Positions 3,122 through 62,887 of a DNA stretch of 64,000 bases are shown here, piece after piece. This DNA is from a virus. The notes below the pieces were generated by a model, which saw only the letters and a program-made list of their open reading frames with translations, ran no database searches and was not told where the DNA came from. Location of the stretch: IMG/VR virus record IMGVR_UViG_3300015603_000051, positions 1 to 64,000 of that record, one strand, 5' to 3'. Every line of letters begins with the position of its first letter. Position 1 is the stretch's first letter. Both the position numbers and the translations under genes were made by a program.

Positions 3122-3130
3122 GTGATATCG

Positions 3131-3149
3131 TGTAGTGGCTGCCACTACA
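3131..3149. repeat. 19-bp palindrome, symmetric variant (copy 5)
   Basis: TGTAGTGGCTGCCACTACA differs from the consensus at one base in each arm, and the two changes compensate, so dyad symmetry is kept. It is centred about 54 bases upstream of the expected start of the leftward promoter. Confidence 0.9.
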
Positions 3150-3256
3150 GCACAATCCCGCGCCGCCGCGCCGCGTACCGCGCCAGCCCCCCTTGGCGAC
3201 CCCACCGCCCCCCTACCCCGACTTTTCGGCGCCCGCGCGCCCGCGCGCGTCCCTCC
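3150..3256. other. C-rich, very GC-rich block in the divergent control region
   Basis: About 100 bases with runs such as CGCGCCGCCGCGCCGCG, CAGCCCCCCTTGG and GCCCGCGCGCCCGCGCGCG, strongly C-rich on the top strand and far above the composition of its AT-rich surroundings. It sits between the two divergent promoters and a little upstream of the terminase genes. A packaging or origin site is possible; no such motif can be proved. Confidence 0.5.
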
Positions 3257-3371
3257 TAATCCAGACAAACATTTACCATAGTTGACCAATTAACAACACA
3301 CTCCGTCCATTTAATAGCAAAAAAGCAAGTAGACAAAAAGACCTACTCCCTAAAAAATTTTTCACAAAAAT

Positions 3372-3401
3372 TTGACATGACATACACACCCATGATATAA
3401 A
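3372..3401 (+). promoter_or_regulatory. Rightward late promoter
   Basis: TTGACA (3372-3377), 18-base spacer, TATAAA (3396-3401) preceded by TGA, giving an extended -10. The first late gene starts at 3437, about 30 bases after the expected start site, with AGGGG as ribosome site. It is the only strong promoter seen before the packaging operon. Confidence 0.85.
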
Positions 3402-3436
3402 CTCGGCAACCACTACATCTAGGGGTATACAGCACG

Positions 3437-4009
3437 ATGCCCACTACATCTGCCGCTTTCGAACCTGAAGTATTCATCCTGCCCCTTCCGCTCGACTTCG
3501 ATGACGAGCCCTTGGGCGACGTACTCACACGCGCTAACTCTCTGTGCGGCTCCGCCGAAGCGATAACCGCCGCCATGCACACGACCGGCCAGCCGCTGGC
3601 CCACAACGTCTCCGAGCAGGACCACATTGAAGCGCAGAAACTATTCCAAGCCCCCGCCAAGTCCCTCAACGACACCCCCACCAGCGTAGCCATTGTCTTA
3701 ACGGCACTGCTGCAGGAATACGATCGCGAGTTCATCGTCAATGCCCAGCAGATACGAAACATCTGCATCAACACCCTGCTCGAGACGGTGAGCAAAGGCA
3801 AGACGACAGAGAAGCTGCGGGCCGTCGAGCTGCTGGGCAAAGTGGCTGACGTCGGCCTGTTCGTAGAGCGGACCCACCAAGTGATCGAGCACCGCCCTGA
3901 TGAAGACCTGAAGCAAATGCTCAAGGACAAGCTGGGTAAACTGCGTACCATCGTCTCCGCCCAGCCGGCCCCCGAAGAAGTCACATTCTCGGAAGTGCCC
4001 ACAGCATGA
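3437..4009 (+). CDS. Probable terminase small subunit
   Basis: 190 residues, first gene of the late operon, overlapping the terminase large subunit by ATGA. The N-terminal 80 residues are acidic and Pro/Ala-rich; the C-terminal half (about residues 95-175) is a run of charged helices (TTEKLRAVELLGKVADVGLF, then DEDLKQMLKDKLGKL) of the kind found in oligomerising small terminases. The assignment rests on position, size and helical character; there is no clear helix-turn-helix. It would recognise the packaging site and hand DNA to the large subunit. Confidence 0.6.
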   Translation: MPTTSAAFEPEVFILPLPLDFDDEPLGDVLTRANSLCGSAEAITAAMHTTGQPLAHNVSEQDHIEAQKLFQAPAKSLNDTPTSVAIVLTALLQEYDREFIVNAQQIRNICINTLLETVSKGKTTEKLRAVELLGKVADVGLFVERTHQVIEHRPDEDLKQMLKDKLGKLRTIVSAQPAPEEVTFSEVPTA

Positions 4010-6450: not shown

Positions 6451-6462
6451 AGGACCACGACC

Positions 6463-8985: not shown

Positions 8986-9170
8986 TCTATATGTTTGACG
9001 CCCGGGTGAAGGCTGCAGTGAGCGCAGATATTGCCAACATCACTGCCCAGCTGTCTGAAGGGCACGCCCAGAGTTATGAAGAGTATAAGTTTAAGGTAGG
9101 TATCCTGCGGGGGCTACGTATGGCCCTGCAGAGCCTCGACGAAATCGCAATCACACTCAAAGACCAATAG
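8982..9170 (+). CDS. Small helical protein between portal and GroES-like gene
   Basis: 62 residues, ATG overlapping the portal stop (ATGA), so probably translationally coupled. Two amphipathic helices (RVKAAVSADIANITAQL and ILRGLRMALQSLDEIAITL). No known domain. A head-assembly accessory or structural role is suggested only by position. Confidence 0.75.
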   Translation: MIYMFDARVKAAVSADIANITAQLSEGHAQSYEEYKFKVGILRGLRMALQSLDEIAITLKDQ

Positions 9171-9179
9171 GAGAAGACC

Positions 9180-9329
9180 ATGGCAACGAAGAAAGAAAAA
9201 CCAGAAGTATCTGTTGAAAACGTATTAGCAGGTTTGATGGAAGAAGTTCTGCAGGCAGTGGAATATGCAAACGACGAAGTAAAGCACACGATCAGGGCGC
9301 TCGTTGCCAAGATCAAAACACACCTATAA
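9180..9329 (+). CDS. 49-residue helical protein
   Basis: MATKKEKPEVSVENVLAGLM... ending KIKTHL, ATG at 9180 with AGGAG eight bases upstream and TAA at 9327-9329. It is tightly packed between two late genes. Charged N-terminus followed by one long helix. Unknown function. Confidence 0.75.
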   Translation: MATKKEKPEVSVENVLAGLMEEVLQAVEYANDEVKHTIRALVAKIKTHL

Positions 9330-9344
9330 TTTTTTGGAGGAACA

Positions 9345-9716
9345 ATGGATAAGAAAGAACTGAGCCAGCAGGAACTTGAAGACGCGCTTCCAAAGCCGTC
9401 TGGCCACAAGATGCTTGTTGCTCTGCCGAAAGTAGCTGACACATTCGATGGTTCGATAATTCAAAAAATTGATTCGACCAAGAATGCTGAAACCATTACC
9501 TCGGTAGTGGCACTCGTACTGGACCTCGGACCAGATGCATATCAAGACAAAGAGCGGTTCCCGTCCGGCCCATGGTGCAAAGCAGGCGATTACGTCCTGA
9601 TGCGCCCATACCAAGGCACGCGGTTCCACCTCAACGGACAAGAGTTTCGTATTGTAAATGACGACGCTGTGGACGGAACCGTAGCGGACCCGAAAGGGTA
9701 TAACCGTGCTGGATAA
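9345..9716 (+). CDS. GroES-like co-chaperonin
   Basis: 123 residues. The segment from residue 18 (PSGHKMLVALPKVADTFDG) to about 110 has the GroES pattern: an initial beta strand, a mobile-loop-like insert (KIDSTKNAETITS), VVALVLDLGPDAY, then KAGDYVLMRPYQGTRFHLNGQEFRIVNDDAV. It would cap host GroEL and assist folding of the capsid protein, as T4 gp31 and related phage Cpn10 proteins do. Placement between portal and scaffold/capsid genes supports a head-folding role. No GroEL gene is present. Ribosome site GGAGG. Confidence 0.8.
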   Translation: MDKKELSQQELEDALPKPSGHKMLVALPKVADTFDGSIIQKIDSTKNAETITSVVALVLDLGPDAYQDKERFPSGPWCKAGDYVLMRPYQGTRFHLNGQEFRIVNDDAVDGTVADPKGYNRAG

Positions 9717-10377
9717 GCGCTGTTACACATGCAAAGAAGTTAAGCCTGTTGCATCTTTCAGTAAGTGCAGCAGAGAGAAAGACGGGCTTAATGGTCGCTG
9801 TAAGGCATGCGTAAAGGTAAATATCAATAGGGTAAAGGCTGCGGAAAAATATGTACCTGCAGAAAAAGCGTGCACTTGTTGTAAAAAAGTAAAGTGCAGC
9901 AGTGAATTTTACCCGAGCAGAGTGACTTCTACAGGGATATCGTCAGAGTGCAAGGATTGTAGCGTCCGTAGAGCATCTATGTATCAGGCAGCAAATAAGC
10001 ATCAGTGCAACGCTAGAAAATTTAAGTGGAGTGCGGCGAACCCGGAAAAGAGGGCAAAAGCATCGTCCGAATTTACGGCGCGTAATAAGCCCTACTACGC
10101 GGCAGCAACTAGCAAATATAGATATACAAAATCTAACGCAGCTCCACCGTGGCTTACTGAGTGCGATTTGTGGATGATACAAGAAGCGTATGACTTAGCG
10201 AAGTTGCGTGAGCATATGCTGGGGGGCAAGTGGGAAGTTGACCACATTGTACCAATACAAGGGAAGACGGTAAGTGGATTACACGTACCGTGGAACTTGC
10301 AGGTAATACCTATGAATGTTAATAGGCGAAAAAGTAACAAATTAGAAGTTGAATCTCGTGGATATTCCCGCGCTTAA
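9706..10377 (+). CDS. Free-standing HNH homing endonuclease with zinc ribbons
   Basis: 223 residues from GTG 9706, overlapping the GroES-like gene by 11 bases with GAAAGGG upstream. Two N-terminal Cys modules (CYTCKEVKP...CKACVK; CTCCKKVK...CKDC), a basic linker, then an HNH core: WEVDHIVPIQGKTVSGLHVPWNLQVI and NRRKSNKLE. It interrupts the order GroES-like gene then scaffold and is more A/T-rich in codon use than its neighbours, consistent with a transferred homing gene. It would cut near its own insertion site in phages lacking it. Confidence 0.85.
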   Translation: MLDKRCYTCKEVKPVASFSKCSREKDGLNGRCKACVKVNINRVKAAEKYVPAEKACTCCKKVKCSSEFYPSRVTSTGISSECKDCSVRRASMYQAANKHQCNARKFKWSAANPEKRAKASSEFTARNKPYYAAATSKYRYTKSNAAPPWLTECDLWMIQEAYDLAKLREHMLGGKWEVDHIVPIQGKTVSGLHVPWNLQVIPMNVNRRKSNKLEVESRGYSRA

Positions 10378-10388
10378 AGGAGAAAAAT

Positions 10389-11345
10389 ATGGACCCAGAA
10401 AACTTAGTAGAAGACAACACGGAAGTGGAAGTTTCCATTGTTGACGATACGCCTGTCGAAGACAGGAACCGAAAACCGTTAGACCATGATGCTTTGGCTA
10501 AAGATGACGAAGCGGAGCAGTACAGTGCCGGCGTCAAGAAGCGGATGGGAGAGCTGCGTCGCCAAGCCCACGAAGAACGCCGTGTAAAAGAAGCGGCCAT
10601 GCGTGAGCGTGACGAGGCAATTAGCTTCGCTAAGCGAGTCGCTGCGGAGTCGGGTGTCCTGAAGAAAAGGCTTACTCATGGCGAGGCAAGTTACGCCGGT
10701 GAAGTGAAGTCGAAAGCGGAAACCACGATCGAAATGGCCAAGCGGAGGTACAAAGACGCGTACGAATCAGGTGACGCGGACAAGATGGCTGAAGCGCAAG
10801 AAGACCTCACAAATGCAACAATTGCGAAGTCTAATGCTGAAAAATGGCAAAATCATGCGAATCAGCAAGTAAATGCTTTACAAGAAGACACTAATGATGT
10901 ATATATACCACAAACGCGTCAAGAAAGTCCTAGACAAGCGCCGGTAGATACACGAGCGAGTGATTGGGCCAGCGAGAATGAGTGGTTTGGGTCTGAACCT
11001 GAAATGACTTCATTAGCGTACGGCGTGCACGAAAAGTTACTTAAAGCAGGTATTCATCCCGATGCGGATGCTGACGAGTATTACGAGGCAATCAACTCAG
11101 CAATGAGAAAACGATTCCCGGAATATTCTTGGTCTGATTCTGAAACAGGACAGACAACCACGAAACACAAACAGGCTGCCCAGCCTGCTGCCAAAAAACC
11201 CATGACTAATGTTGCACCTGTGACTCGTTCGAGCGCAGGCAAAAACAAAGTTGTGCTGACCAGAACGCAAGTCAGTCTTGCGGAGAAGTTCGGACTTACT
11301 CCAGAACAGTATGCCCGCGAACTTATTAAATTGAATGGAGCTTAA
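10389..11345 (+). CDS. Capsid scaffolding protein
   Basis: 318 residues immediately before the head genes. Acidic N-terminus, long charged coiled coil (about residues 50-160, ELRRQAHEERRVKEAAMRERDEA...), flexible Gln/Pro-rich middle, and a basic C-terminus ending EKFGLTPEQYARELIKLNG, the usual capsid-binding helix position. Size, charge pattern and gene order fit a scaffold that guides prohead assembly and is removed before packaging. No protease is visible next to it. Confidence 0.75.
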   Translation: MDPENLVEDNTEVEVSIVDDTPVEDRNRKPLDHDALAKDDEAEQYSAGVKKRMGELRRQAHEERRVKEAAMRERDEAISFAKRVAAESGVLKKRLTHGEASYAGEVKSKAETTIEMAKRRYKDAYESGDADKMAEAQEDLTNATIAKSNAEKWQNHANQQVNALQEDTNDVYIPQTRQESPRQAPVDTRASDWASENEWFGSEPEMTSLAYGVHEKLLKAGIHPDADADEYYEAINSAMRKRFPEYSWSDSETGQTTTKHKQAAQPAAKKPMTNVAPVTRSSAGKNKVVLTRTQVSLAEKFGLTPEQYARELIKLNGA

Positions 11346-40253: not shown

Positions 40254-40496
40254 TTATCCAGCCAACGATTTGTATAGTGCCTCGATCTTGTCGAGAACTT
40301 CTTTTTTTGGTTTGTACTCGCCGTCGAGATATCCATACAGCGCCGCACGGGTGATGCCGACTTTCTCTGCCGCTTCTACCACTGGAATGTTATTTTGGAT
40401 GCACCGCTCAACGAGCAGGAATACTGGATTGGTCGGGTCTTGTTGGAGTGCAGCTTCAACCCGTTTGACCAGCATATACGAAAAACCCTTAGCCAT
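40254..40496 (-). CDS. Helix-turn-helix DNA-binding protein
   Basis: 80 residues. ERCIQNNIPVVEAAEKVGITRAALYGYLDGEYKPKKEVLDKI contains a helix-turn-helix with the recognition helix RAALYGYLDG, like short XRE/FIS-type phage regulators. It follows the SSB-like gene after a strong terminator, so it is expressed by read-through or by an unseen promoter. A candidate regulator of the early region. Confidence 0.75.
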   Translation of the reverse strand: MAKGFSYMLVKRVEAALQQDPTNPVFLLVERCIQNNIPVVEAAEKVGITRAALYGYLDGEYKPKKEVLDKIEALYKSLAG

Positions 40497-44303: not shown

Positions 44304-44570
44304 TTATTTTTTACGGCTCGCTTTTGGCTTGCCGCTCGACGTGCGCGGGTAGGACATATTAGCACTAGGCGATACCAGTCGTCGGTTAGATGCAGCGTTA
44401 CTGCCGCCCAGACTCAACGGCACGATGTGGTCGATCTGCTTGCCGGTACGGTCAACGCCTTTGGCATCTAACTCCCTGCGCGCTTTCTGTCGCTCCATAC
44501 GTAGAGGCAATTCTCCACGCTTTTGCTGTAGATCATACTCATGTTTATAGTCCCGCTTCGTAGCCATCAA
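44304..44570 (-). CDS. Small HNH-type protein
   Basis: 88 residues, ATG overlapping the nuclease stop. Basic N-terminus (KRDYKHEYDLQQKRGELPLRMERQKARRELDAKG) then QIDHIVPLSLGGSNAASNRRLVSPSANMSYPR, a short HNH core with DH and N-x-R-L. Small proteins of this exact plan are widespread in phages beside replication genes; whether they cut DNA is not known. Confidence 0.75.
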   Translation of the reverse strand: MMATKRDYKHEYDLQQKRGELPLRMERQKARRELDAKGVDRTGKQIDHIVPLSLGGSNAASNRRLVSPSANMSYPRTSSGKPKASRKK

Positions 44571-46189
44571 TATCTCCTTTTGTTGGATTTAAATTCACAC
44601 CCGTCTACAGGGCAGAACCCGCATAGCCCTGACGGAGACGGGCTAAACGTACCACTCTTTTTGGCAACTTCAATGCGCTGCACATCCTGAATCCATTTAC
44701 GCCATAACAGTTTCTGGTCTTTCTTCAGATACGTCGCCTGCACCAGCTGGTCGACCACAAGGAATACCAACCCACCGCGCACCTTGTCCACCTTCGGGAA
44801 GTGCCTGAACACCATCAGTGCCATCAGCTCCAACTGCTTCGGGTCAGCAAACTTGCTGCTCTTGCCTGTATTGTGCGTAGGTATAAAATTTCTAGTACAC
44901 AAAAAAGTATTGTCTGGCGAGTTTACTGAAATACACTGCGTAGAAACCGGAGCTGTTTTCTTAACTGATACTACTTTTCTATACCAAGAATTACCGGCCC
45001 CCCACTCTACATTTATTCTATCCGCCTTTCTAGGCAGGAGGAAGGGGTTAAACCCAATAGGTCTAAATGCAAGTGGATATGCCGTGACAGTCAAACCAAA
45101 CCCGTGCTGTAGCGTCTTCGCTTGGTTTACCCGCTGCCCCATAGACTCAAGCAAACACTTTACATCGTCAGACAGGCGTTTATCGCAAGTAGTAAATACG
45201 GCCTGTTTTCTCGTAGGATTTGCGTTCCCGTCGCCATCCATAAGTCCCCGTATAAGGTCGAGGCGTTGTGCGGAAGAAGCCGTCAGATACTCCGCTGGGA
45301 TATGTTTATTGTTGAGTACGCCGATTGCTTTTAGTTTCCTAGATAGCCCGTAAATAGTTCTGGTGGGGCAAGTGTTATTTTTTCCGCTTGTATCTCCCCC
45401 CGCTACATACCCGCGTCTAGCTATTTCTTCCCACACAAAAGCATCTGGCTTTGAAATTGAACTAGAGCGAGAACTGCCGTCCGCTATCCACAAACCAAGA
45501 ATATAGGGGTCTACCGTCAGCTTTTTATGCTCTGTTTGTGTAGGCTTACACACAGCTATTTTACTACCAACTGCCAGCTCAGTTACAGATACGACTGCCC
45601 CATCATAAAGTTTCCACAGATGTACGTCGTCGCATACAACAGAAGTTTTATCGTCAAATTTAACTTCGTAGCACTCTCTATTATGTATGCCAGACTTGCC
45701 AACAACCTTGCATTGCTCTCCATTGCTGTCGAATACAGTATCCCCCACAGCTAAATCACGCATAGTAACGAACCCGCTAGGAGTTGGTATTTCTTCAGTA
45801 AGGGCTAACCCTTTCCAGTCCAGCACTCGGGCCGTCGTACCGTTTACCACCAACACATCTGCGATACCGCGAACAAATCGATCAGCAGAATCAAAGTCGC
45901 AAGGGCGCAGGTTGTAGTCCAAAGCCATTTTATATTCAACGTACCTATCTCCATCCATATCCTCTACCTTTTTTACGGCAGGCATGAACTTGGCATGCTG
46001 CTCAGGTAGTGGGGTCTTACCATTCAAATGATCTTCGATCGCTTCATGCACCAGCGTGCCGTACAGCGTAGCCTCATTACCCGAGTCTTTCACATCCTTC
46101 AGCACGTATTGGTGCTGGTAACGGCGCGCACATTGTTGAAAGGTTTTCAATGCGCTGAACGACCATGTGACCGGAATTTCGTTGTCCAT
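44567..46189 (-). CDS. Cas4/RecB-like PD-(D/E)XK nuclease with class 3 intein
   Basis: 540 residues as translated; 226 after splicing. N-extein 1-126: FSALKTFQQCARRYQHQYV (Cys20), GTLVHEAIEDHL (His48, the RecB-family His), GIADVLVV with the first Asp, and RVLDWK with catalytic Lys126. C-extein from Thr441: TGKSSKFADPKQLELMAL (Q-L motif), ending GLCGFCPVDGCEF, three Cys (523, 526, 531) that with Cys20 form the iron-sulphur site of Cas4/AddB nucleases. Processes DNA ends in recombination or replication. Active only if the 314-residue intein is removed. Confidence 0.9.
   Translation of the reverse strand: MDNEIPVTWSFSALKTFQQCARRYQHQYVLKDVKDSGNEATLYGTLVHEAIEDHLNGKTPLPEQHAKFMPAVKKVEDMDGDRYVEYKMALDYNLRPCDFDSADRFVRGIADVLVVNGTTARVLDWKGLALTEEIPTPSGFVTMRDLAVGDTVFDSNGEQCKVVGKSGIHNRECYEVKFDDKTSVVCDDVHLWKLYDGAVVSVTELAVGSKIAVCKPTQTEHKKLTVDPYILGLWIADGSSRSSSISKPDAFVWEEIARRGYVAGGDTSGKNNTCPTRTIYGLSRKLKAIGVLNNKHIPAEYLTASSAQRLDLIRGLMDGDGNANPTRKQAVFTTCDKRLSDDVKCLLESMGQRVNQAKTLQHGFGLTVTAYPLAFRPIGFNPFLLPRKADRINVEWGAGNSWYRKVVSVKKTAPVSTQCISVNSPDNTFLCTRNFIPTHNTGKSSKFADPKQLELMALMVFRHFPKVDKVRGGLVFLVVDQLVQATYLKKDQKLLWRKWIQDVQRIEVAKKSGTFSPSPSGLCGFCPVDGCEFKSNKRRY
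44870..45811 (-). other. Class 3 intein with LAGLIDADG endonuclease
   Basis: Residues 127-440 of the nuclease. It starts with Gly127, not Cys/Ser/Thr (GLALTEEIPTPSGFVTMRDL). Block B has VHLW with His190 and Trp192. Block F has CISVNSPDNTF with Cys419 at the position normally held by Asp. Block G is IPTHN/T with Thr438. Trp192, Cys419 and Thr438 are the W-C-T triplet that defines class 3 inteins, which splice via the block F Cys. Two LAGLIDADG helices (YILGLWIADGS, LIRGLMDGDGN) form the homing domain. The insertion lies between catalytic Lys126 and the TGK of the host motif. Confidence 0.88.
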
Positions 46190-53024: not shown

Positions 53025-53176
53025 TTTGAACCCCCCATTTTATTAAATGTTGCTACATCTTTTCTGATTTGTTCCACGGTCGCTTTATCTTCCAGCCCCC
53101 GCAGTACGCCAAGCAAAAAGAACACAAGCGCGAATGTTGTGGCAGCCACAACAAATATAATCAGCAGGCGTTTCAT
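53021..53176 (-). CDS. Small single-pass membrane protein containing the palindrome
   Basis: 51 residues from ATG 53176. MKRLLIIFVVAATTFALVFFLLGVL is a transmembrane helix whose VVAATT is encoded by palindrome copy 6. A charged tail follows. Overlaps neighbours by four bases. Confidence 0.65.
   Translation of the reverse strand: MKRLLIIFVVAATTFALVFFLLGVLRGLEDKATVEQIRKDVATFNKMGGSK
53135..53153. repeat. 19-bp dispersed palindrome, copy 6
   Basis: TGTTGTGGCAGCCACAACA, read as VVAATT inside the transmembrane helix of the gene at 53021-53176. Confidence 0.95.
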
Positions 53177-54387: not shown

Positions 54388-55263
54388 TTAAATTGCAAAC
54401 TTTCCTCGCATCGTTTTCACATCTTCACGTACGCTTGCGCGTACGCCTGCTTCCTCCCGCAAGTCCTTCGCTGTAACCCCGAGCATGATCGACTCCAGCT
54501 CACGGCGCGCCCGCTCCAGCCTAGTATCGCCCGATACATTCAGGCTTTTCAGCAGCTCACACAGCTCCACAGCGTTCTCCACCAGCGAGTCCCTGAATAC
54601 GTTAGGCTTGCCTTCCTCGTCTGCACCAAGGCGCTCTGCTAGCTTGTCAAGGCACGACTTGAGCCTATCCCACAGCAACAGGTTCACTTCTGCTATGCGG
54701 GCGTTCATGGTCTGCTCGTAGGCAGCGCGTAGTTCTTCACGTAGCGAGTTCTCTGCGTCCACCCTGAAGTCACCCGATGTGGGCACCGGTGCAATATCCC
54801 AACTGACTGCGAACTTGCCTGTGATTTCCTGCACACTCGGGTACTCCGCGCGGTTGAACATCGCCCCGAGTTTGAACGCCATGCCGGACACCTGCACGTT
54901 GTAGTCCTGTATGAAGTCAGTCACCTTCACATCGAAGTCGTACTTCATATCATGCAGTTCCTGCATCACATCATTCAGCAGCGCAACAGGCAGCATCTTC
55001 AGGTTGCCCATCCACGGCAGCGTCACGCTCGGCAGGTAGTTACGGATAGCACTTGCCTGCTTGTTGATCGCATCCAGCTTCGGATTGTCCACGAACAGCC
55101 GCTTGGTTACAAGGGCTGCGTCCTTCGACTGCGCGTGGTTATCTGCGACTACTTTCTCCGTGTTGGTTTTGTCTTTCTTCCTGCCAGCCCATACAGATAT
55201 GTTCAGGTCTAGCAGCACTGCCGACGACACGATGCCGCCGATTACGTCTTTGTGGGTGTTCAT
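54388..55263 (-). CDS. DUF3150-like protein of the MoxR/VWA module
   Basis: 291 residues. Opens with a beta strand segment SSAVLLDLNISVWAGRKKD (characteristic start of DUF3150-type phage proteins), followed by long helices; ends with RARRELESIMLGVTAKDLREEAG. Proteins like this are encoded with MoxR/CobS-type ATPases and VWA proteins in phages, as here. The name is by resemblance; no activity is known. Confidence 0.65.
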   Translation of the reverse strand: MNTHKDVIGGIVSSAVLLDLNISVWAGRKKDKTNTEKVVADNHAQSKDAALVTKRLFVDNPKLDAINKQASAIRNYLPSVTLPWMGNLKMLPVALLNDVMQELHDMKYDFDVKVTDFIQDYNVQVSGMAFKLGAMFNRAEYPSVQEITGKFAVSWDIAPVPTSGDFRVDAENSLREELRAAYEQTMNARIAEVNLLLWDRLKSCLDKLAERLGADEEGKPNVFRDSLVENAVELCELLKSLNVSGDTRLERARRELESIMLGVTAKDLREEAGVRASVREDVKTMRGKFAI

Positions 55264-55272
55264 AACATTCTC

Positions 55273-55491
55273 CTATAGAAGTTTCCGTGCGTTAATTTCC
55301 GTACGATAAGATTTTTCTCTTTCTGGCGCCATGATGGTCGTGGTTTGCTTGAACTTATCGGACACGAACTGAATCAATTCTCTCGCATCCCATGTGGTCG
55401 GCAGCTTGCCCTGCTCGATCTGCTCCAGCACACCCTTGCCTACTGCCTTGACGTGCGCCACTACAACTGCGAACTGCTCTTCCTGCTTCAC
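55273..55491 (-). CDS. Small hypothetical protein
   Basis: 72 residues, ATGA overlap with the upstream HTH gene. AVVVAHVKAVGKGVLEQIEQGKLPTTWDARELIQFVSDKFKQT; helical, possibly regulatory. Unknown. Confidence 0.65.
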   Translation of the reverse strand: MKQEEQFAVVVAHVKAVGKGVLEQIEQGKLPTTWDARELIQFVSDKFKQTTTIMAPEREKSYRTEINARKLL

Positions 55492-55709
55492 TGTAGCCCC
55501 CTGATCTTCACGCCTAGCGTTGCGCGGATACCCCGCGTTGGTATGCCTGTCAGCTCATGCATCTTGATTACGAACATCGCACCTACCGGCAGCACGCCGT
55601 TTCTATACTTGCTAATTACCGGCGGGTGTATGCCGAGCATCTTGCCTAGTGCTGCATCATTCTTGGCGCCTGTTATTTCTGCTGCGATATCGATTACATT
55701 TTTATTCAT
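55488..55709 (-). CDS. Cro/YdaS-like helix-turn-helix protein
   Basis: 73 residues. IDIAAEITGAKNDAALGKMLGIHPPVISKYRNGVLPVGAMFVIKMHELTG is an XRE-type helix-turn-helix with recognition helix PPVISKYRNG. Candidate regulator, for example of the palindromic sites; no evidence ties it to them. Confidence 0.8.
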   Translation of the reverse strand: MNKNVIDIAAEITGAKNDAALGKMLGIHPPVISKYRNGVLPVGAMFVIKMHELTGIPTRGIRATLGVKIRGLQ

Positions 55710-55710
55710 G

Positions 55711-56016
55711 CTATTTCTCCCTTAGCTTTTTTAAATTAAAATATCTTTTCGTTACTAGTTCATATGCAGTTTTCTCGGTGCCGGTTGCCACCCTAGATAG
55801 CAACTCGTTCACCATCAATACGTGTGCTGCCTCTTCATCGCCCTCCAAGATCGCATCTGCATACATATCCCACCCTGCTGAAAGTTGCCGTGCAGCTCTG
55901 TTTGCGTATATTTTTTCTGCGTGTTTCGTGTACTCCTGTTTTAGTTCCTTCGACGGGATGCCGATAACCTTAACTACCAAGCCGGCGCTGTCAAAACACT
56001 TTTTAAGCTTTTCCAT
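55711..56016 (-). CDS. Small helical protein
   Basis: 101 residues. KELKQEYTKHAEKIYANRAARQLSAGWDMYADAILEGDEEAAHVLMVNELL, helical. One base before the HTH gene. Unknown. Confidence 0.68.
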   Translation of the reverse strand: MEKLKKCFDSAGLVVKVIGIPSKELKQEYTKHAEKIYANRAARQLSAGWDMYADAILEGDEEAAHVLMVNELLSRVATGTEKTAYELVTKRYFNLKKLREK

Positions 56017-56128
56017 AGCGCACCTCTATCAGTCCAGCGTATCTTGCCTCACTTATTACTATGTACCCCTTGCGCTTCATCAAGTGTCGTGCACGTTTGT
56101 ACAGGTACTCGCTTGTGTAAGTCTTCAT
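56003..56128 (-). CDS. 41-residue basic protein
   Basis: MKTYTSEYLYKRARHLMKRK then GYIVISEARYAGLIEVRYGKA, with GGGAGATAAAGC directly before ATG 56128, the ribosome site used by many genes here. Overlaps the C-terminal coding part of the gene at 56049-56363 in another frame and the next gene by 14 bases. The strand-turn-helix plan looks real. Confidence 0.6.
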   Translation of the reverse strand: MKTYTSEYLYKRARHLMKRKGYIVISEARYAGLIEVRYGKA

Positions 56129-56363
56129 GCTTTATCTCCCTGATAACATCGTTGGTGTAGGCTTCCAGTCCGGCCCCGTCAACACTCCAGTAATCTTTCC
56201 AGAGTATCCTGCGCAGCGCCATGCCTGTGTTCTGCGTTTCTAATATCTGCTCAGGCGTAGGCACTTTCGGGAACCGCAGCTTCAGCATTAGGAATGTCTC
56301 CATGTCATTTGTTGTGGCTGCCACAACATTTCGTATCTGCTCATAGAATTTATCTAAGTCCAT
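56049..56363 (-). CDS. Hypothetical protein carrying the palindrome
   Basis: 104 residues. MDLDKFYEQIRNVVAATTNDMETFLMLKLRFPKVPTPEQIL; codons 12-17 are palindrome copy 7. The last 26 residues overlap a small gene in another frame, so the real C-terminus is uncertain. Confidence 0.65.
   Translation of the reverse strand: MDLDKFYEQIRNVVAATTNDMETFLMLKLRFPKVPTPEQILETQNTGMALRRILWKDYWSVDGAGLEAYTNDVIREIKHEDLHKRVPVQTCTTLDEAQGVHSNK
56310..56328. repeat. 19-bp dispersed palindrome, copy 7
   Basis: TGTTGTGGCTGCCACAACA near the 5' end of the gene at 56049-56363, read as VVAATT. Confidence 0.95.
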
Positions 56364-56691
56364 ATTCGTCTCCTAGTTCGCGCACGTAGTGTTCCATCGG
56401 TGCCCAGTGCGCCGTCGGGATTAAGTTGGTGCTTCCGTTGAACGACTTTTTGACCCCGTGATGCATTGCATCACGGGTCTGTTTCACACTTGTAGAACTT
56501 AGCATGCGGTCAACCACAAACGCAACGCATCCTTCTATATCCTCCCACTTATGCATTTCGACTTCGAACCTTTTATAGTTCGGGTAGGTATTAGCCGAGT
56601 ATGCCTCTTCCAGCTCACGGGAATAGCTCAGCGCCATATAGATTCCGACCGCTTCCTTCACTACAAGCTTGGCTTTATCTAGGATGTTCAC
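56350..56691 (-). CDS. Hypothetical helical protein
   Basis: 113 residues, four-base overlap upstream, 14-base overlap downstream. KLVVKEAVGIYMALSYSRELEEAYSANTYPNYKRFEVEMHKWEDIEGCVAFVVDRML. No family recognised. Confidence 0.65.
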   Translation of the reverse strand: MNILDKAKLVVKEAVGIYMALSYSRELEEAYSANTYPNYKRFEVEMHKWEDIEGCVAFVVDRMLSSTSVKQTRDAMHHGVKKSFNGSTNLIPTAHWAPMEHYVRELGDEYGLR

Positions 56692-56885
56692 AACAGCACC
56701 ACATGAGTAACCACACCCTCTTCTTTCCGCAGGATGCGGGATACGTACCGCGCTGTGCGCACATCAGGGAACGACCGCTTGATTACAGGGCGTGTGTCAT
56801 ACTCAAAGCTGCCGTTCATACTCGTCACCCACCGCCCCGTGTCAGGTGCATAAAGGTGTACTGTTTGTTGGTTATTCATAGCCAT
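56688..56885 (-). CDS. Small beta-type protein
   Basis: 65 residues. YAPDTGRWVTSMNGSFEYDTRPVIKRSFPDVRTARYVSRILRKEEGVVTHVVLL suggests a small antiparallel sheet with one helix. Unknown. Confidence 0.62.
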   Translation of the reverse strand: MAMNNQQTVHLYAPDTGRWVTSMNGSFEYDTRPVIKRSFPDVRTARYVSRILRKEEGVVTHVVLL

Positions 56886-57217
56886 TCCCTCCTAGTTCTG
56901 TTCGTATAGGTAATGAGGTAGATAAATTCAACCGTTTCTCTTTTGCGCCTGTCCATGTCCCACATATACACAAACCCGTTGTCTCGCGCCATCCTCCTTG
57001 TTTGTCCGTAGGCGAGCATATTCTTCACAAGTAGGTCTTCCGCTCCCTCCCCCCACGCTTTGACCGCAACGTCGAAGTCTTCTACCAATTCGGCCTTGTT
57101 TGCGAGCGAATATTCTTTCGCATCTACTACCAACACTACGTTGTCTACCGCTGCGAACACAGGTTCTAGCTTTCTCTTAATGCGCGAGTACCGGCGGAGT
57201 TTTGTTTTCGTTTTCAT
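56876..57217 (-). CDS. Hypothetical basic protein
   Basis: 113 residues with a strongly basic N-terminus (KTKTKLRRYSRIKRKLE) and FAAVDNVVLVVDAKEYSLANKAELVEDFDVAVKAWGEGAEDL. No family recognised; overlaps both neighbours slightly. Confidence 0.65.
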   Translation of the reverse strand: MKTKTKLRRYSRIKRKLEPVFAAVDNVVLVVDAKEYSLANKAELVEDFDVAVKAWGEGAEDLLVKNMLAYGQTRRMARDNGFVYMWDMDRRKRETVEFIYLITYTNRTRREWL

Positions 57218-57975
57218 GACGCCCTCCTTTTCTTAGGTAACTCGCCTGCGGGTACAGGCACTTTATCAAACGCATCGAATTGGTCGTACGCTGCCCATCT
57301 AACATTCTCGAACACCGCGTTCGACCAGTACGCCTGTCTCCCCCACCCCATCAAATACGTCCCGCCAAGTGACTTCTTCAAGATGTACATGAGAACATCG
57401 TCTTCGTTCTTCCCATTCTTGATATGCTGCGCTATCCCCGCTGCCGCTATCGCAGGTGTATCGGCATATAGCCCACTGCTCGGTGTTGTTGCCGACATGA
57501 TCGCCTTGGCACGATCGAACACAGGCTTCAACCTTGCCCGTACTTCCTTCGCCCTGTCCTTGTTCAGCACATAATTGAACTCAGTTTCAGGGTTCAGCAC
57601 GACACCATCTTTTATCCGCAGCCCTTCACGCGGTATTGCATACGAGCCGCCACTCACCCCAACGCGCACTCGGTTCTGCTCACGCCGCACACTGAATGGC
57701 GCAATGCTATGCATGAACATCGTAGTGCTTACCGTCTCCCATCCTCCATGGTTTAACTCGATCGTGCCGTCAGGGAAGAAGCTCACACAATTCGTACTGT
57801 GCAGCTTGAAGTGAACCACTTCCCTATCCATATGCACGACCATCGCGTTGTCGCTGCTGCGCTTGCCGATGTGCCTGATGCCAGTAGTGCGTAAAGGCTT
57901 GATGCTGTCGTGGTAGCGCTTGGCACTGTAGTAGCCGGACAGCGAAGGTACTGCGTCATAGTTTCTGTTGTACAT
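57214..57975 (-). CDS. Unnamed family, paralogue 1 of the MoxR/VWA module
   Basis: 253 residues, GGGAGATAAGT upstream. N-terminal part: YYSAKRYHDSIKPLR, HIGKRSSDNAMVVHMDREVVHFKLHSTNCVSFFPDGTIELNHGGWETVST. Then YAIPREGLRIKDGVVLNPETEFNYVLNKDRAKEVRARLKPVF. The same ordered plan (INxDGRIxV, a W-x-S/T-Y start, a Y-x-V-xxRGL strand, a TINKERSKAAR-like helix) occurs in the gene at 61664-62644, so they are diverged paralogues. They flank the ATPase and VWA genes and may be its clients or adaptors. I recognise no established name. Confidence 0.7.
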   Translation of the reverse strand: MYNRNYDAVPSLSGYYSAKRYHDSIKPLRTTGIRHIGKRSSDNAMVVHMDREVVHFKLHSTNCVSFFPDGTIELNHGGWETVSTTMFMHSIAPFSVRREQNRVRVGVSGGSYAIPREGLRIKDGVVLNPETEFNYVLNKDRAKEVRARLKPVFDRAKAIMSATTPSSGLYADTPAIAAAGIAQHIKNGKNEDDVLMYILKKSLGGTYLMGWGRQAYWSNAVFENVRWAAYDQFDAFDKVPVPAGELPKKRRAS

Positions 57976-58027
57976 ACTTATCTCCCTAAGTGTGTGAACT
58001 GCGGGGCGCTACTACTGCCCCGCTACT

Positions 58028-58046
58028 TGTTGTGGCTGCCACAACA
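58028..58046. repeat. 19-bp dispersed palindrome, copy 8
   Basis: TGTTGTGGCTGCCACAACA, intergenic, just after the stop of the gene at 58050-58586. A GC hairpin (GCGGGGC/GCCCCGC) lies between it and the next gene. Confidence 0.95.
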
Positions 58047-58049
58047 TTT

Positions 58050-58586
58050 TTACTTCCAAGCAGCGAGCAGTTGGTCGAGCTTCGCTTCGATACGGTCGAG
58101 CTGCGAGTTACCGCCCCAATTAGGCAAGCTGGCAACCGTTACAACACCATCTTCTTCATCCAGCATCTGCCGCACTTTGCCCGTGATATAGCGCATAGCC
58201 AAGTCTTTGTCGAACATATAGCGAGTCTTGCCATTGCCTGCTGGACTCGATGTGTGCGGCACCCCTGCTGCGATCAGTTCGTCACGAATCTTGCCGTCTG
58301 CCGCTGGTACACCACGCTCGCGCAGTTCCACCACGACTGCGTATGTGGACATGGTTTCTGATTTCGGCTTCACCGGCACACTAGCGCTCACCATATGCTT
58401 GATGTAGTTGGCCACAGTCAGAGCATCATAGAAGCGATAGATGCGCTTGCCCATCGGTATTTCCAGCTCAGTTGCACCCATATCAAGCAGTGCTTTCGCT
58501 ATGATGTTAGACTCCGGTGCTGCTACGCCCGCTGCACGCAGTTGCTCGGATACTTGGAACAGTGATATTTGCTTAGTCGATTTCAT
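58050..58586 (-). CDS. Protein with two tandem HTH-like modules
   Basis: 178 residues. VSEQLRAAGVAAPESNIIAKALLDMGATELEIPMGKRIYRFYDALTVANYI is repeated in diverged form as VVVELRERGVPAADGKIRDELIAAGVPHTSSPAGNGKTRYMFDKDLAMRYI, an internal duplication of a winged-helix-like unit. The tail (PNWGGNSQLDRIEAKLDQLLAAWK) is a likely coiled coil. Located between paralogue 1 and the VWA gene. Confidence 0.72.
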   Translation of the reverse strand: MKSTKQISLFQVSEQLRAAGVAAPESNIIAKALLDMGATELEIPMGKRIYRFYDALTVANYIKHMVSASVPVKPKSETMSTYAVVVELRERGVPAADGKIRDELIAAGVPHTSSPAGNGKTRYMFDKDLAMRYITGKVRQMLDEEDGVVTVASLPNWGGNSQLDRIEAKLDQLLAAWK

Positions 58587-58627
58587 TTTGATTCTCCCAT
58601 AAGATTAAAAAGATTTACTACGAGGTA

Positions 58628-59860
58628 CTACACTTCCAAACGAATTGTCTTCCCTACTGTCGACACGATGTTCGATGTGATGCACCACAGCGTAGGCACA
58701 TTCCACTGGCCGAAGTCATTGCCTAAGTACCCATCTGTTACCTGAACCACAGCCACAACATCCTGCATACCATGGACGATCTTAGCCATGTCGAGTACGC
58801 AAGTGCCGCCACCGCCCGCAGGTTTAGTCGAAGTCAGGATGCTGTCATAGTCTCCCTGCTTGTACACTTCATGCGCTGCGACTCGCGTATCCCAATACAT
58901 CAGGTGCACTTCGGACGGGTTCATCGTCTTGCACAGGGCTACGAACTCACTCACGGCTGCCGTCAATTCTTTACTACCGATCGAGCCCGAGGTATCAATG
59001 CCGAACACAACCTTGCCAACGGACTCGCTGATCGTGCTGGGCAAATACAAATCCTCATGCAAGAACCTGCGGTTAGGCCGGCGCCATGTAGCTTCATCAT
59101 TACCCTGACAAGTCTCCGTTATAAAGTCGGACATTTGCTGCTTCCAGTCTACCTTCGGCTCAAGCACTTCACCCAAGCCACGGTGCACATTACCACCGAG
59201 CTTACCCGCCAAGTACGCACCTTGACGCAACGCGTCTTCGACTGCGGCTCTGATCTTACCCTCGACTTCGGCTTGCTCTTCCGGCGTACCCGCTGCGGTT
59301 CCTTCATCATGCAGATGCTCGTCCATGCCCGCTTCGCTACTACCACCCTTACCTTCCCCCTTACCACCCTTACCTTCCCCCTTACCACCCTTCTTGGCGC
59401 CCTTCATCAAGTCCTTGAATACCATCGGCACAGACCAGCCTTGGTACTTGCGATCAAGGCATCCCATCTGCTTGCCGTCCGGTGTCTTAGGCATGGTTGC
59501 GAAGTTGCCGTCAGAGTCGCCGTCCACGATCATGTTGTTGACTACATGGTCGATCGCTTGTGCATATGCTTCTGCGTTTACTTTGTGCAGGTTGCTGTAG
59601 TCGAACACATGAAGCAAGGCGAAGTGCGTAATCTCATGCAGCACAAGAAAGTTAAATTCTTTCTCGTTCAATGCATCCATGAACTTCCTGCCGTACTTGC
59701 GATTGCCCGCCCTGTCGATGCTCGCCGTGGGTGTTGTCTCACACACCTCTGACTTGCCCATGAAGATCAGACCGCTGTATGCACACCATGTGGGGTGTCG
59801 TAGCATCTGATAGTGTGTGCGCTCGAGCCTAGACTCGACGCTGTGTTTTCCTGTTGCCAT
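58628..59860 (-). CDS. VWA-domain protein with N-terminal zincin (DUF2201-like)
   Basis: 410 residues, TGGGAGATAAATC before ATG 59860. The N-terminal metallopeptidase-like domain has LVLHEITHFALLH (His75, Glu76, His79) and DHVVNNMIVDGD. A Gly/Lys-rich linker with a short tandem repeat (KGGKGEGKGGKGEGKGG, 157-173) follows. The C-terminal VWA domain has the MIDAS GIDTSGSIG (289-293) and later TDGYLGND. Plan as in DUF2201/CobT-like partners of MoxR ATPases. It should work with the ATPase at 60145-61236. Substrate unknown. Confidence 0.85.
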   Translation of the reverse strand: MATGKHSVESRLERTHYQMLRHPTWCAYSGLIFMGKSEVCETTPTASIDRAGNRKYGRKFMDALNEKEFNFLVLHEITHFALLHVFDYSNLHKVNAEAYAQAIDHVVNNMIVDGDSDGNFATMPKTPDGKQMGCLDRKYQGWSVPMVFKDLMKGAKKGGKGEGKGGKGEGKGGSSEAGMDEHLHDEGTAAGTPEEQAEVEGKIRAAVEDALRQGAYLAGKLGGNVHRGLGEVLEPKVDWKQQMSDFITETCQGNDEATWRRPNRRFLHEDLYLPSTISESVGKVVFGIDTSGSIGSKELTAAVSEFVALCKTMNPSEVHLMYWDTRVAAHEVYKQGDYDSILTSTKPAGGGGTCVLDMAKIVHGMQDVVAVVQVTDGYLGNDFGQWNVPTLWCITSNIVSTVGKTIRLEV

Positions 59861-59900
59861 GATTTATCTCCCAATAAAGTTATGCTGTTTGCCTACTATC

Positions 59901-60134
59901 CTACTGTTCATTTGTTGTGGCAGCCACAACATCTTCCGGTTCCCGTATTACCATCACCTTCTCGCCACCGTAGTATTTACGCTGGTAATCGTTGTACACT
60001 TTCATGTACTCCATCGGGTCGTCAAGGATATGCTTGGCGTACACCATCGCTATCATGAATTTCTTCTGCCAGTACAGCCCATACAATAGCCCTGCGACAG
60101 CTAGCGATAATGCCACCCACTCAAATGTCGTCAT
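59901..60134 (-). CDS. Small membrane protein between VWA and MoxR genes
   Basis: 77 residues. Transmembrane segment TFEWVALSLAVAGLLYGLYW, then AMVYAKHILDDPMEYMKVYNDYQRKYYGGEKVMVIREPEDVVAATTNEQ. The C-terminal VVAATT is palindrome copy 9. Could anchor the ATPase/VWA complex at the membrane; inference from position only. Confidence 0.7.
   Translation of the reverse strand: MTTFEWVALSLAVAGLLYGLYWQKKFMIAMVYAKHILDDPMEYMKVYNDYQRKYYGGEKVMVIREPEDVVAATTNEQ
59913..59931. repeat. 19-bp dispersed palindrome, copy 9
   Basis: TGTTGTGGCAGCCACAACA at the 3' end of the gene at 59901-60134, in the VVAATT frame, about 55 bases upstream of the VWA gene. Confidence 0.95.
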
Positions 60135-60144
60135 GCAGTTCTCC

Positions 60145-61236
60145 TTACCATATGTTTTTCAGTTTCGCCACGGCTTTTGCCATGCTCGGATGCTGCGCTG
60201 CCCATACCGATGTGCTTGGCGTGGACAAAATACGATTGATAAAGATGCCATGCATTTCAGCATTGAACCGATCGACATACTCCATCACCGCTTTCAAGTC
60301 GCCCTTCGTTACCTTTACCAGCAGCGAGAATACCAACAACAGGCGCGCGGGTGGCGAGTCAGGGATAGGGCACTTCGCAGGGTTGGCAAGAATCGCTTTG
60401 TAGTCAGGCAAGCTCTCTTCCAGATTTACAAAAGTCATCATGCTGTTTGCCGTGTTCACCCCGACCGTACCCGACAGTGCTGCGTGCAGCGTAGCCGATG
60501 TGAGTTTCTGCTTGTTCTCCAGTACCGCATTGCACTTGAACAGTGAGCGTGGGGTACAGACCGACCGTTGCACCTTCTTCGGGTTGTAGATGTACGGGTT
60601 CGCACCATCGGGGTCGTCGCGATACGACTGGAATATCTGCGGGAACTCTTCTGCAAATGCCAGCAGGGTTGCGTTCGCACCGTTCTCCATGCCCCACGCT
60701 TGCCATTCCTCGCTGCTCGGGCTGCGCAGTTCGACTTCCGTGATGCGGTTGCGTACATGAGCTTGCATATCATCACCCAGCCCTTCTTCCTGCAAGTTGG
60801 AAGAACAGAACACGATCGAGTCAGGGTGCAGCACCGTACTACCCAAGCGACGCTCAAGCATCAGCGGCAGCAGCATATTCTTCACATCACGCGTGCCTTT
60901 CAAATACTCGTCCAGCATGATGCAAACAGGTACGCCAAGGTGCAGCTTGAAATGCTCGTTCGGATAGAAGCCGGTGCAGCGCTCGTCCTTGTTAATCACA
61001 GGCATCATGGTGTCACCGAACGAAAGGTTCGCGCAGTCGATGTATGCACCGACCATGTTTGGCACAGTCTTACGCATCTTATCCAGCACCATCTTCTGCA
61101 GCGAGGACTTGCCGATGCCAGTTGGTCCGCGTACCAACACCGTGTTGCTATGTCCAGTGGCGCAGATCAGGTCAGTGACTTCGGAATGGTTAAGGGTAGC
61201 TACACCTGCGACTGCGTTTGTTTTTATCGTTGCCAT
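60145..61236 (-). CDS. MoxR-type AAA+ ATPase
   Basis: 363 residues from ATG 61236 (TGGGAGATTCAAA upstream). Walker A RGPTGIGKSS (36-45), Walker B CIMLDEYLKG (Asp109, Glu110), sensor 1 IVFCSSNLQ, arginine finger region MQAHVRNRITEVEL, then a C-terminal helical lid. MoxR/CobS/RavA-type ATPases act with VWA proteins as metal-inserting or remodelling chaperones. The VWA partner is encoded 41 bases beyond the intervening small gene. It has its own consensus promoter and palindrome-bearing leader. Confidence 0.88.
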   Translation of the reverse strand: MATIKTNAVAGVATLNHSEVTDLICATGHSNTVLVRGPTGIGKSSLQKMVLDKMRKTVPNMVGAYIDCANLSFGDTMMPVINKDERCTGFYPNEHFKLHLGVPVCIMLDEYLKGTRDVKNMLLPLMLERRLGSTVLHPDSIVFCSSNLQEEGLGDDMQAHVRNRITEVELRSPSSEEWQAWGMENGANATLLAFAEEFPQIFQSYRDDPDGANPYIYNPKKVQRSVCTPRSLFKCNAVLENKQKLTSATLHAALSGTVGVNTANSMMTFVNLEESLPDYKAILANPAKCPIPDSPPARLLLVFSLLVKVTKGDLKAVMEYVDRFNAEMHGIFINRILSTPSTSVWAAQHPSMAKAVAKLKNIW

Positions 61237-61254
61237 TTTGAATCTCCCATAATT

Positions 61255-61273
61255 TGTTGTGGCTGCCACAACA
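61255..61273. repeat. 19-bp dispersed palindrome, copy 10
   Basis: TGTTGTGGCTGCCACAACA in the 5' leader of the MoxR gene, 19 bases upstream of its ATG and about 50-70 bases downstream of the expected start of transcription. Preceded by a small GC hairpin (CCCGC-CGGAT-GCGGG). Confidence 0.95.
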
Positions 61274-61330
61274 TTTACTACGCCCCGCATCCGGCGGGTT
61301 CGGTCATACAAACATTTCCTACTAGATAAC

Positions 61331-61359
61331 ATTATAGCATTGTATCTATCCTATGTCAA
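61331..61359 (-). promoter_or_regulatory. Consensus extended -10 promoter for the MoxR/VWA unit
   Basis: Minus strand TTGACA (61359-61354), 17-base spacer, TATAAT (61336-61331) preceded by TGC. This is the full sigma70 consensus with extended -10, the strongest promoter in the window. Leader of about 88 bases to ATG 61236. Confidence 0.93.
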
Positions 61360-61403
61360 GCGATTCTGGACGTGATACAACTTATTTCAGTGTGTTTTCT
61401 GAT

Positions 61404-61667
61404 TTATTTTGCTGCTACTTCACGGTCGTATCTCTCGCCCATCATCTGCATGGCGAGGTACTGTGCTTCGCATATCACTCGCATGGTTATGTCTGGCTGG
61501 TTTGTTATGCAGATCATATCCGTATACTTCCCATCGAGGTTATTCGCGCTTACCTTCTGCGTGTTAGACATGGCACGCATAAACATAACCCCTGCTTCGA
61601 ACGGCATCACATAGCTCTCATATCCAACCTTGATTATGGCGTACCCTTCATTTGGTTTGGTTTTCAT
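61404..61667 (-). CDS. Small hypothetical protein
   Basis: 87 residues, ATGA overlap with paralogue 2. MKTKPNEGYAIIKVGYESYVMPFEAGVMFMRAMSNTQKV...ITNQPDITMRVICEAQYLAMQMMG: strand, helix, strand, helix. No family recognised. The MoxR promoter lies after its stop. Confidence 0.68.
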   Translation of the reverse strand: MKTKPNEGYAIIKVGYESYVMPFEAGVMFMRAMSNTQKVSANNLDGKYTDMICITNQPDITMRVICEAQYLAMQMMGERYDREVAAK

Positions 61668-62644
61668 TTTTTCTTTCCTTTCTTTTTAGGTACAGGTAAC
61701 ACGAACGGCATGGCGAACGACCTGCCTTGTGGCGCAGAGCCGATCGGCTGCGGGGTTATATCGTACACATCCATGCTCTCGTACATAATCTGATGAAGCT
61801 TGCTTCTCGCTTTCTTAAAGTCGAGATAGGCTGCCCGTATCAACTTCGGCGGGTCGAACTCGTATGTACCTGCCCTCGTTCCGTTGTTCCAAGTATACCG
61901 CCCACGATGCAGTTCCTCTGCCTGAAATGCGGCGATCACACAGCTGCCGACGATATGCAGGATGTTGTCCTCGTTGCCCTCGAGCGCGTCCTGTATGAAC
62001 ACCTTGCGCGCTGCCGCGCTACTCTGGTAGCCGAAGTCCACCTGCTTCTTTTGATAAATATCGTATGCTTCTCGCGGGTTCGCTGCCCCGCAGATGTTCT
62101 CCAGTATGGTCACGATGTGCTTGTACTTGGTGCGTGCTGCCTTGCTGCGCTCCTTGTTGATAGTCGACTTGAACTCCTGCTGCGGCGTGAGGGGATGCCC
62201 TGTTGCACTGATCGTCAGCCCCCGCTTACCCACGCGGTAATACTTCTTGTCCTTGACCAGATATGCTGCATCCCGCACCTTCTCGAAGTAGTACGGTGTG
62301 AACCGTGTCATGAGCGATGTGATGTAGTTGCTCGCCCACCCTGCCGCTGTCGGGTCGTTGTAGTGCTTGGTGCCGCCCACCCGTATGCGTCCGTCCGGCA
62401 GGTAGCTCACGATAGCGTTCTTCCAGTTCCTGATCGTGTAAATTGAGCCGAACTTGGTGTCGCGCTTGGTCATGTGGACGCTGCCCCGATAGCCTTGGCT
62501 TGTGTACTCCATCGGTATGCGCCCTCGACGCTCGCTCGTTGCGTCTCGCGTTTTTACCCTCGGTTCAGTGGCATAGTGCTTCGCCGCCTGTGCATATGAC
62601 TCGATTGGGTAAAAGTTGTACATATTTGTCGATCCCCAGCCCAT
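61664..62644 (-). CDS. Unnamed family, paralogue 2 of the MoxR/VWA module
   Basis: 326 residues, TTAGGGAGATAATC upstream. YPIESYAQAAKHYATEPR, KFGSIYTIRNWKNAIVSYLPDGRIRVGGTKHYN, AGWASNYITSLMTRFTPYYFEK, KYYRVGKRGLTISATGHPL, FKSTINKERSKAARTKYKHIV; each block has a counterpart in the gene at 57214-57975. A Lys-rich tail (PKKKGKKK) ends it. It is longer than paralogue 1 by a C-terminal helical part. Function unknown. Confidence 0.7.
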   Translation of the reverse strand: MGWGSTNMYNFYPIESYAQAAKHYATEPRVKTRDATSERRGRIPMEYTSQGYRGSVHMTKRDTKFGSIYTIRNWKNAIVSYLPDGRIRVGGTKHYNDPTAAGWASNYITSLMTRFTPYYFEKVRDAAYLVKDKKYYRVGKRGLTISATGHPLTPQQEFKSTINKERSKAARTKYKHIVTILENICGAANPREAYDIYQKKQVDFGYQSSAAARKVFIQDALEGNEDNILHIVGSCVIAAFQAEELHRGRYTWNNGTRAGTYEFDPPKLIRAAYLDFKKARSKLHQIMYESMDVYDITPQPIGSAPQGRSFAMPFVLPVPKKKGKKK

Positions 62645-62869: not shown

Positions 62870-62887
62870 TGTTGTGGCGCCACAACA
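62870..62887. repeat. 18-bp palindrome variant lacking the central base (copy 11)
   Basis: TGTTGTGGCGCCACAACA, perfectly symmetric, identical to the consensus arms but without the central A/T. It lies between two small membrane-protein genes. Confidence 0.93.

Follow-up and report, generated by a model that had tools for sequence, protein, structure and literature searches.

Pairs of a MoxR-type AAA+ ATPase and a VWA-domain protein have been described from several groups of viruses. In jumbo phages, the MoxR protein and a metallopeptidase-VWA protein were described together as chaperone and cochaperone, with a proposed function in virion assembly (PMC7824862), and viral AAA+/VWA pairs in archaeal and other tailed viruses were interpreted as CobST (PMC8651126). 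An experimentally studied example comes from the archaeal virus ATV, whose proteins p618 and p892 bind each other and have been ascribed a function in tail development (PMC4124505). In the NorQ/NorD system, NorD is the VWA protein that binds to the ATPase hexamer; its metal ion-dependent adhesion site (MIDAS) is required for activity, not for ATPase binding, which is consistent with client binding via an acidic residue (PMC9976466). Here we report a computational analysis of such a pair and its surrounding genes in an uncultured phage, the IMG/VR virus record IMGVR_UViG_3300015603_000051 (65,357 bp), whose bases 1-64000 are referred to below as the window. The pair itself is already described in the phage literature and is not new.

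We identified in relatives of this phage a recurring machine of three to four genes, comprising the ATPase, its VWA helper, a DUF3150 protein and, in phages, members of a family that we name ParX; it is partly common to bacterial plasmids. DUF3150 is the near-constant third gene of the module, and ParX is a diverse, previously unnamed phage family; neither the DUF3150 linkage nor the placement of ParX after the VWA gene appears in the literature searched, in which a query for DUF3150 returned no papers. The window encodes a MoxR/midasin AAA+ subunit, a zincin-VWA protein with an intact MIDAS and a DUF3150 protein, and ParX follows the VWA gene in most of the sampled phage loci. We give an even chance to the reading that this block is an early-type, ATP-driven protein-remodeling machine of a lineage of tailed phages of ~60-65 kb, with ParX as its dedicated client or adaptor.

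A preliminary description of this DNA had listed the genes of the block, and all of the named open reading frames (ORFs) were found at their places on the minus strand (Table 1). Its assignment of a MoxR-type ATPase is borne out by a match to phrog_1297 along nearly the full length of the protein (residues 15-362) and by its Walker A (GPTGIGKS) and Walker B (IMLDE) motifs. Among solved AAA+ proteins, a profile of 11 phage homologues of the ATPase hit midasin AAA by far best (2.9e-28) and NorQ at 2.3e-4. The Pfam family AAA_3 (PF07726, MoxR proper) gave no match to the window ATPase up to E=1, and a bacterial homologue encoded beside DUF3150 (L207) matches it at 2e-5, under the curated cut-off. 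A scan of viral contigs for close relatives with the ATPase alone returned nothing, and the PADLOC defense models gave no match beyond a weak AAA one (RtcR, 0.003).

The VWA protein, also correctly recognized beforehand as carrying a HEITH zincin motif, matches phrog_1314 at 5.5e-75 over residues 5-409, nearly its full length, and exceeds the Pfam cut-offs of both PF13203 (DUF2201_N; 2e-26, 93.6 vs 23.2 bits) and PF09967 (DUF2201; 1.4e-11, 45 vs 26.4 bits). HEITH forms part of an HExxHxxxxH...AxDxxxN motif that is invariant in the alignment of 11 phage sequences, its conserved residues including H75, E76, H79, H84, A102, D104, and N108; the invariant MIDAS residues (DxSxS/GGT/TD) include D289, S291, G292, S293, T353, and D376. 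In a wider set of 133 distinct VWA sequences, the MIDAS is kept in all and HExxH in 126, which argues that remodeling is more general than cleavage.

The DUF3150-like protein named in the preliminary description scores 33.6 bits against PF11348 (cut-off 24.9), covering profile positions 3-174 of 257, and several small genes separate its gene from the VWA gene upstream. When viral contigs were scanned by DUF3150 alone, the ATPase and VWA genes were both close by in 35 of the 45 loci obtained and at least one of them in 40; in nine of the ten incomplete loci the sequence ends less than 2 kb downstream of DUF3150. Relatives of DUF3150 occur in 44 plasmid records. All five plasmid regions opened have the order ATPase, DUF3150, VWA-like gene, with several small genes between ATPase and DUF3150 in one of them (L128), and PRTRC or type IV secretion genes lie near the trio in several. 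In bacterial genomes, which were searched using the plasmid-derived alignment as query after a first, over-strict pattern had yielded nothing, all three genes are present in 58 of 79 loci, mainly from Burkholderiales. At distant DUF3150 loci (L211, L212, L222, L226, and similar ones), a classical AAA ATPase, matching PF00004 in L212, stands in place of MoxR/VWA, an arrangement that fits DUF3150 as an AAA+ partner; in L226, a DUF1257 protein is also encoded near the distant DUF3150 protein. The AlphaFold2 (AF2) model of the window protein has a predicted local distance difference test (pLDDT) score of 87, and Foldseek found no match to it in the PDB at E<=0.001. A fold assignment was dropped, as the best VIA-align Z of 8.6, to helical bundles, is within background.

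The two diverged copies of one protein reported earlier for this block are indeed related (BLASTP 4e-10, 22% identity; the hidden Markov model (HMM) of ParA finds ParB at 1e-6), and the record as a whole yielded no third copy. By clustering the neighbors of DUF3150 loci, we obtained two recurring families with the ParA N-terminal pattern, c14 (~360 amino acids, aa) and c8 (~280 aa). The ParA set aligns with c8 at 2.6e-7 by hhalign, the c8 HMM retrieves ParA at 5.8e-5, and the best further matches of a ParA-seeded HMM over 9,890 ORFs are all c14 genes (1.2e-4 to 1e-3). ParX as defined here (ParA/ParB, c8, c14) is held together by profile similarity and by linkage to the VWA gene, the c14 link alone being weaker, and a D-G/D-N turn recurs in ParA, ParB, c8, and c14. 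Independent viral scans with the two families located the VWA gene upstream of c14 in 53 of 59 loci and upstream of c8 in 11 of 14; the remaining six and three loci have at most 1,080 and 1,434 bases upstream, respectively. The gap from VWA to ParX is mostly below 2 kb, the longest (4.9 kb, L029/L107) containing a ParA-like gene. Among complete modules of the DUF3150 scan with enough flank, 23 of 30 have ParX, one of which (L059) was counted from a weak match and inspection.

Some modules have a second ParX copy beside MoxR or VWA, namely the window, L024/G008, and L029. In the L024 contig (G008), a ParA-like gene precedes MoxR at one end, and the other end holds the remainder of MoxR, DUF3150, VWA, and a c8-like gene; the contig ends thus split MoxR, and if the contig is circular, the module has one ParX per side, like that of the window. 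The ParA model (pLDDT 78) had no Foldseek match in the PDB at E<=0.001, and a fold claim was dropped here as well (best VIA-align Z 4.4, within background). In a viral structure library, ParA matched only unnamed phage proteins, one of them from Caulobacter phage CcrSwift (2e-6). A scan of viral contigs for close relatives with ParB alone returned nothing. The sole result of tblastn with ParB in phages was a chance match, and so was the Motura match to ParA (E 6), whose ORF does not align.

Several observations weigh against the reading as a remodeling machine with ParX as client or adaptor. The weakest homology link is that between the ParA set and c14 (hhalign 8.7e-5, probability 60%). No recognizable ParX was found in seven of the 30 complete modules with enough flank, in the N4-like and other MoxR/VWA phages tested, or in the plasmid regions opened; ParX is therefore not part of a universal core. 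Other ParX branches, from Caulobacter phage CcrRogue, a 636-kb uncultured phage, L021, and L022, have no linked module. Among the 79 bacterial DUF3150 loci, 18, mostly distant homologues, lack a MoxR/VWA match, and six of the seven such loci inspected have another ATPase-like ORF nearby. Since HExxH is missing from seven bacterial VWA proteins, peptidase activity cannot be required in every case. Finally, contigs of different scans overlap and are related, so that the locus counts do not represent independent events.

The preliminary description proposed the paralogues as the best candidate for a specific adaptor or substrate of the module, a view that homologues occurring widely without MoxR/VWA genes would contradict. 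The c8 and c14 neighborhoods agree with it, whereas the unlinked CcrRogue, L021, and L022 branches partly bear out the contrary case; a strong association can be stated for these two branches but not for the family as a whole. The earlier account listed DUF3150 but overlooked that, as the third component, it is the more constant one and also occurs on plasmids. An alternative that we consider unlikely, though deserving of real weight, is that ParX proteins are early phage proteins independent of the AAA+ module, its neighbors merely through conserved early gene order: early gene order in phages is conserved anyway, some branches exist without the module, and none was found on the plasmids opened. 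However, the divergent c8 and c14 branches, in phages that differ in the order of DUF3150 and MoxR, both hold the slot after VWA, and the second copies beside MoxR or VWA speak in the same direction. We conclude that the ParX pair is probably the dedicated partner or target of the machine rather than a chance neighbor.

By analogy with NorQ/NorD, the VWA protein would cap the ATPase hexamer, and the metal of its MIDAS may bind a client through an acidic residue. ParX could be that dedicated client, or an adaptor carrying a host client, with its D-G/D-N turn as a candidate MIDAS ligand. The ring would then pull on the bound protein, either ParX or a ParX-bound target, which the zincin may cut, and DUF3150 would assist the ATPase in a structural or regulatory capacity.

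The module more probably acts inside the cell, in host takeover, replication, or counter-defense, than in virion assembly, because the three-gene core also occurs on conjugative plasmids, and because the module has an early-arm position with replication genes following it in relatives. A role as a virion-assembly chaperone, in which the MoxR/VWA-peptidase pair would assemble and process phage structural proteins, was proposed for the same domain pair in jumbo phages (PMC7824862) and accords with the tail-development role of the interacting ATV proteins (PMC4124505); we rate it as improbable here, a little below the independence of ParX, since conjugative plasmids carrying the ATPase-DUF3150-VWA trio have no virion and the window module sits among the early/replication genes of the leftward arm, apart from the structural genes of the rightward arm. 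Taken together, DUF3150 as a near-constant third part, the plasmid-shared core, and the ParX family in the slot after VWA shift expectations away from virion assembly and towards control inside the cell. Very improbable is a metal-chelatase helper, in which phage CobST-like subunits would act with host CobN in cobalamin synthesis, as viral AAA+/VWA pairs were read in PMC8651126, since the VWA protein is a DUF2201 protein with a zincin domain, CobT/CobS families gave no match (Pfam E<=1, NCBIfam E<=0.01), no cobalamin gene was recognized among the window proteins scanned, as already remarked in the preliminary description, and the model has no place for DUF3150 or ParX.

The block is also marked by a 19-bp perfect palindrome, TGTTGTGGCWGCCACAACA, which occurs in the window in nine exact copies and one with a symmetric pair of changes (starts at 694, 1085, 1863, 2138, 3131, 53135, 56310, 58028, 59913, and 61255), compared with 0.03 in shuffles. 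The copies are confined to the outer region at either end of the window. An own palindrome present at least three times was found in 21 of 81 related module loci of at least 8 kb, in none of three rounds of first-order shuffles, and in none of 73 bacterial loci or of the N4-like controls. Several relatives have different palindromes located 20-60 bp before the starts of MoxR, VWA, DUF3150, or ParX, which suggests a shared regulon; cyanophage MinM2 (L003) has a GGTTCAG-N-CTGAACC palindrome 11 times around its MoxR/DUF3150/VWA block. An RNA-hairpin reading is less likely, since A or T stands at the center in either orientation and the even palindromes of relatives keep their innermost bases symmetric, although a hairpin loop leaves these no way to pair. 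The likeliest reader of the palindrome is a putative phage-specific dimeric DNA-binding regulator, for which the small HTH proteins encoded at 55488-55709 and 40254-40496 are candidates, and the regulon, if true, would give a handle on early-gene timing in such phages. A broader scheme, offered tentatively and with well under an even chance, is that the ATPase, zincin-VWA, and DUF3150 form an AAA+ machine of phages and conjugative plasmids that acts early on the host, with ParX proteins as fast-evolving, phage-specific target adaptors, and that all of these genes are switched by a phage-specific palindromic operator regulon whose sequence varies among relatives and whose position is kept.

Table 1. 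Features of the module region in the window (window coordinates)
Feature	Coordinates	Strand	Evidence or position
Palindrome TGTTGTGGCWGCCACAACA	53135..53153	.	within small early ORF
DUF3150 protein, near-constant third component	54388..55263	-	PF11348 3.4e-8; linkage to ATPase and VWA
Palindrome TGTTGTGGCWGCCACAACA	56310..56328	.	within small early ORF
ParX paralogue A (ParA), 253 aa	57214..57975	-	BLASTP/HMM links; second gene downstream of VWA, the slot of the c8/c14 branches
Palindrome TGTTGTGGCWGCCACAACA	58028..58046	.	before ParX-A
178-aa protein between VWA and ParX-A, weak internal repeat	58050..58586	-	no family match
Zincin and VWA (MIDAS) protein, DUF2201 family, N4 gp25 family (phrog_1314)	58628..59860	-	PF13203, PF09967, motifs
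77-aa possible single-pass membrane peptide between ATPase and VWA	59901..60134	-	no match in relatives
Palindrome TGTTGTGGCWGCCACAACA	59913..59931	.	before VWA gene
MoxR/midasin-clade AAA+ ATPase, N4 gp24 family (phrog_1297)	60145..61236	-	phrog_1297 6e-49
Palindrome TGTTGTGGCWGCCACAACA	61255..61273	.	18 bp before ATPase start
Predicted sigma-70 promoter, TTGACA-17-TATAAT, TG before -10	61331..61359	-	12/12 consensus match, ahead of ATPase
87-aa protein between ParX-B and promoter	61404..61667	-	no family match
ParX paralogue B (ParB), 326 aa	61664..62644	-	related to A at 4e-10; upstream of ATPase
Variant palindrome TGTTGTGGCGCCACAACA, without central base	62870..62887	.	upstream of ParX-B

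The smaller genes of the block agree only in part with their first description. The protein reported to have a duplicated helix-turn-helix (HTH) has a weak repeat, its halves aligning at E 0.007, and no Pfam HTH match. The peptide between ATPase and VWA is in its place, and its possible membrane segment is one modest hydrophobic stretch (mean Kyte-Doolittle value 1.42). The view of one leftward block holds as to strand; however, the predicted promoter, the only 12/12 match in 11 kb, separates the 87-aa gene from the ATPase and so divides the block, and DUF3150 stands apart from VWA.

The rightward arm of the window carries terminase, capsid, and tail-type genes, and the leftward arm, which includes the AAA+ module, encodes DNA polymerase A, a VRR-NUC-like protein (named by inspection), a PD-(D/E)XK nuclease, an SNF2 helicase, and a primase/helicase-like protein. 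The polymerase is similar to those of Pseudomonas phages KPP25 and Rollin and of Rhizobium phages. In relatives, as in the window, VRR-NUC, DNA polymerase A, PD-(D/E)XK, and SNF2 helicase come after the module. Megablast of the block against phages gave no match; a 10.8-kb contig (L002, IMGVR_UViG_3300005045_000013) is 99.9% identical to window positions 1-10654 and represents the same or a near-identical phage. An intein (PF14890) interrupts the terminase large subunit (4006-6450), and a LAGLIDADG homing-endonuclease domain is inserted in the PD-(D/E)XK nuclease gene (44567-46189). Two adjacent similar genes (622-996 and 1001-1393) each contain one palindrome copy within the ORF, and the first matches phrog_374 (HNH endonuclease).

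Like the window proteins, the cellular pairs NorQ/NorD, RavA/ViaA, and CobS/CobT combine a MoxR/midasin-clade AAA+ ATPase with a MIDAS-bearing VWA partner; the window VWA partner differs by its N-terminal zincin domain, and no metal-enzyme client gene was seen. Pfam and NCBIfam contain CobS/CobT models, and at E<=1 and E<=0.01, respectively, none was reported for the ATPase or the VWA protein. The pairs of N4 (gp24/gp25) and of jumbo phages share with the window the same families (phrog_1297, phrog_1314; PF13203 and PF09967), motifs, and adjacent genes; the N4-like phages sampled have no ParX matches and no DUF3150 in the stretches searched, whereas the window has DUF3150 and two ParX. The trio in plasmids and genomes of Burkholderiales and others, annotated only as ATP-binding, hypothetical, DUF3150, or VWA-like proteins, consists of the same three families in one same-strand run; no ParX was found there, and its genes are mostly directly adjacent, whereas small genes separate DUF3150 in the window. 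Cyanophage MinM2, Pag-Yong1, and Pra-JY27, unlike the window, have no ParX match and have other small genes between the parts; in MinM2, three similar ~112-aa tandem genes lie between DUF3150 and VWA (L003:10957-11983). Like the window, these three phages have MoxR, DUF3150, and DUF2201-VWA in one block, and a palindrome recurs in that region. MoxR/VWA-peptidase pairs occur widely among phages. The present analysis extends this known pair by its linkage to DUF3150, by the ParX family, and by a putative palindrome regulon, with DUF3150 and ParX as concrete binding partners to test.

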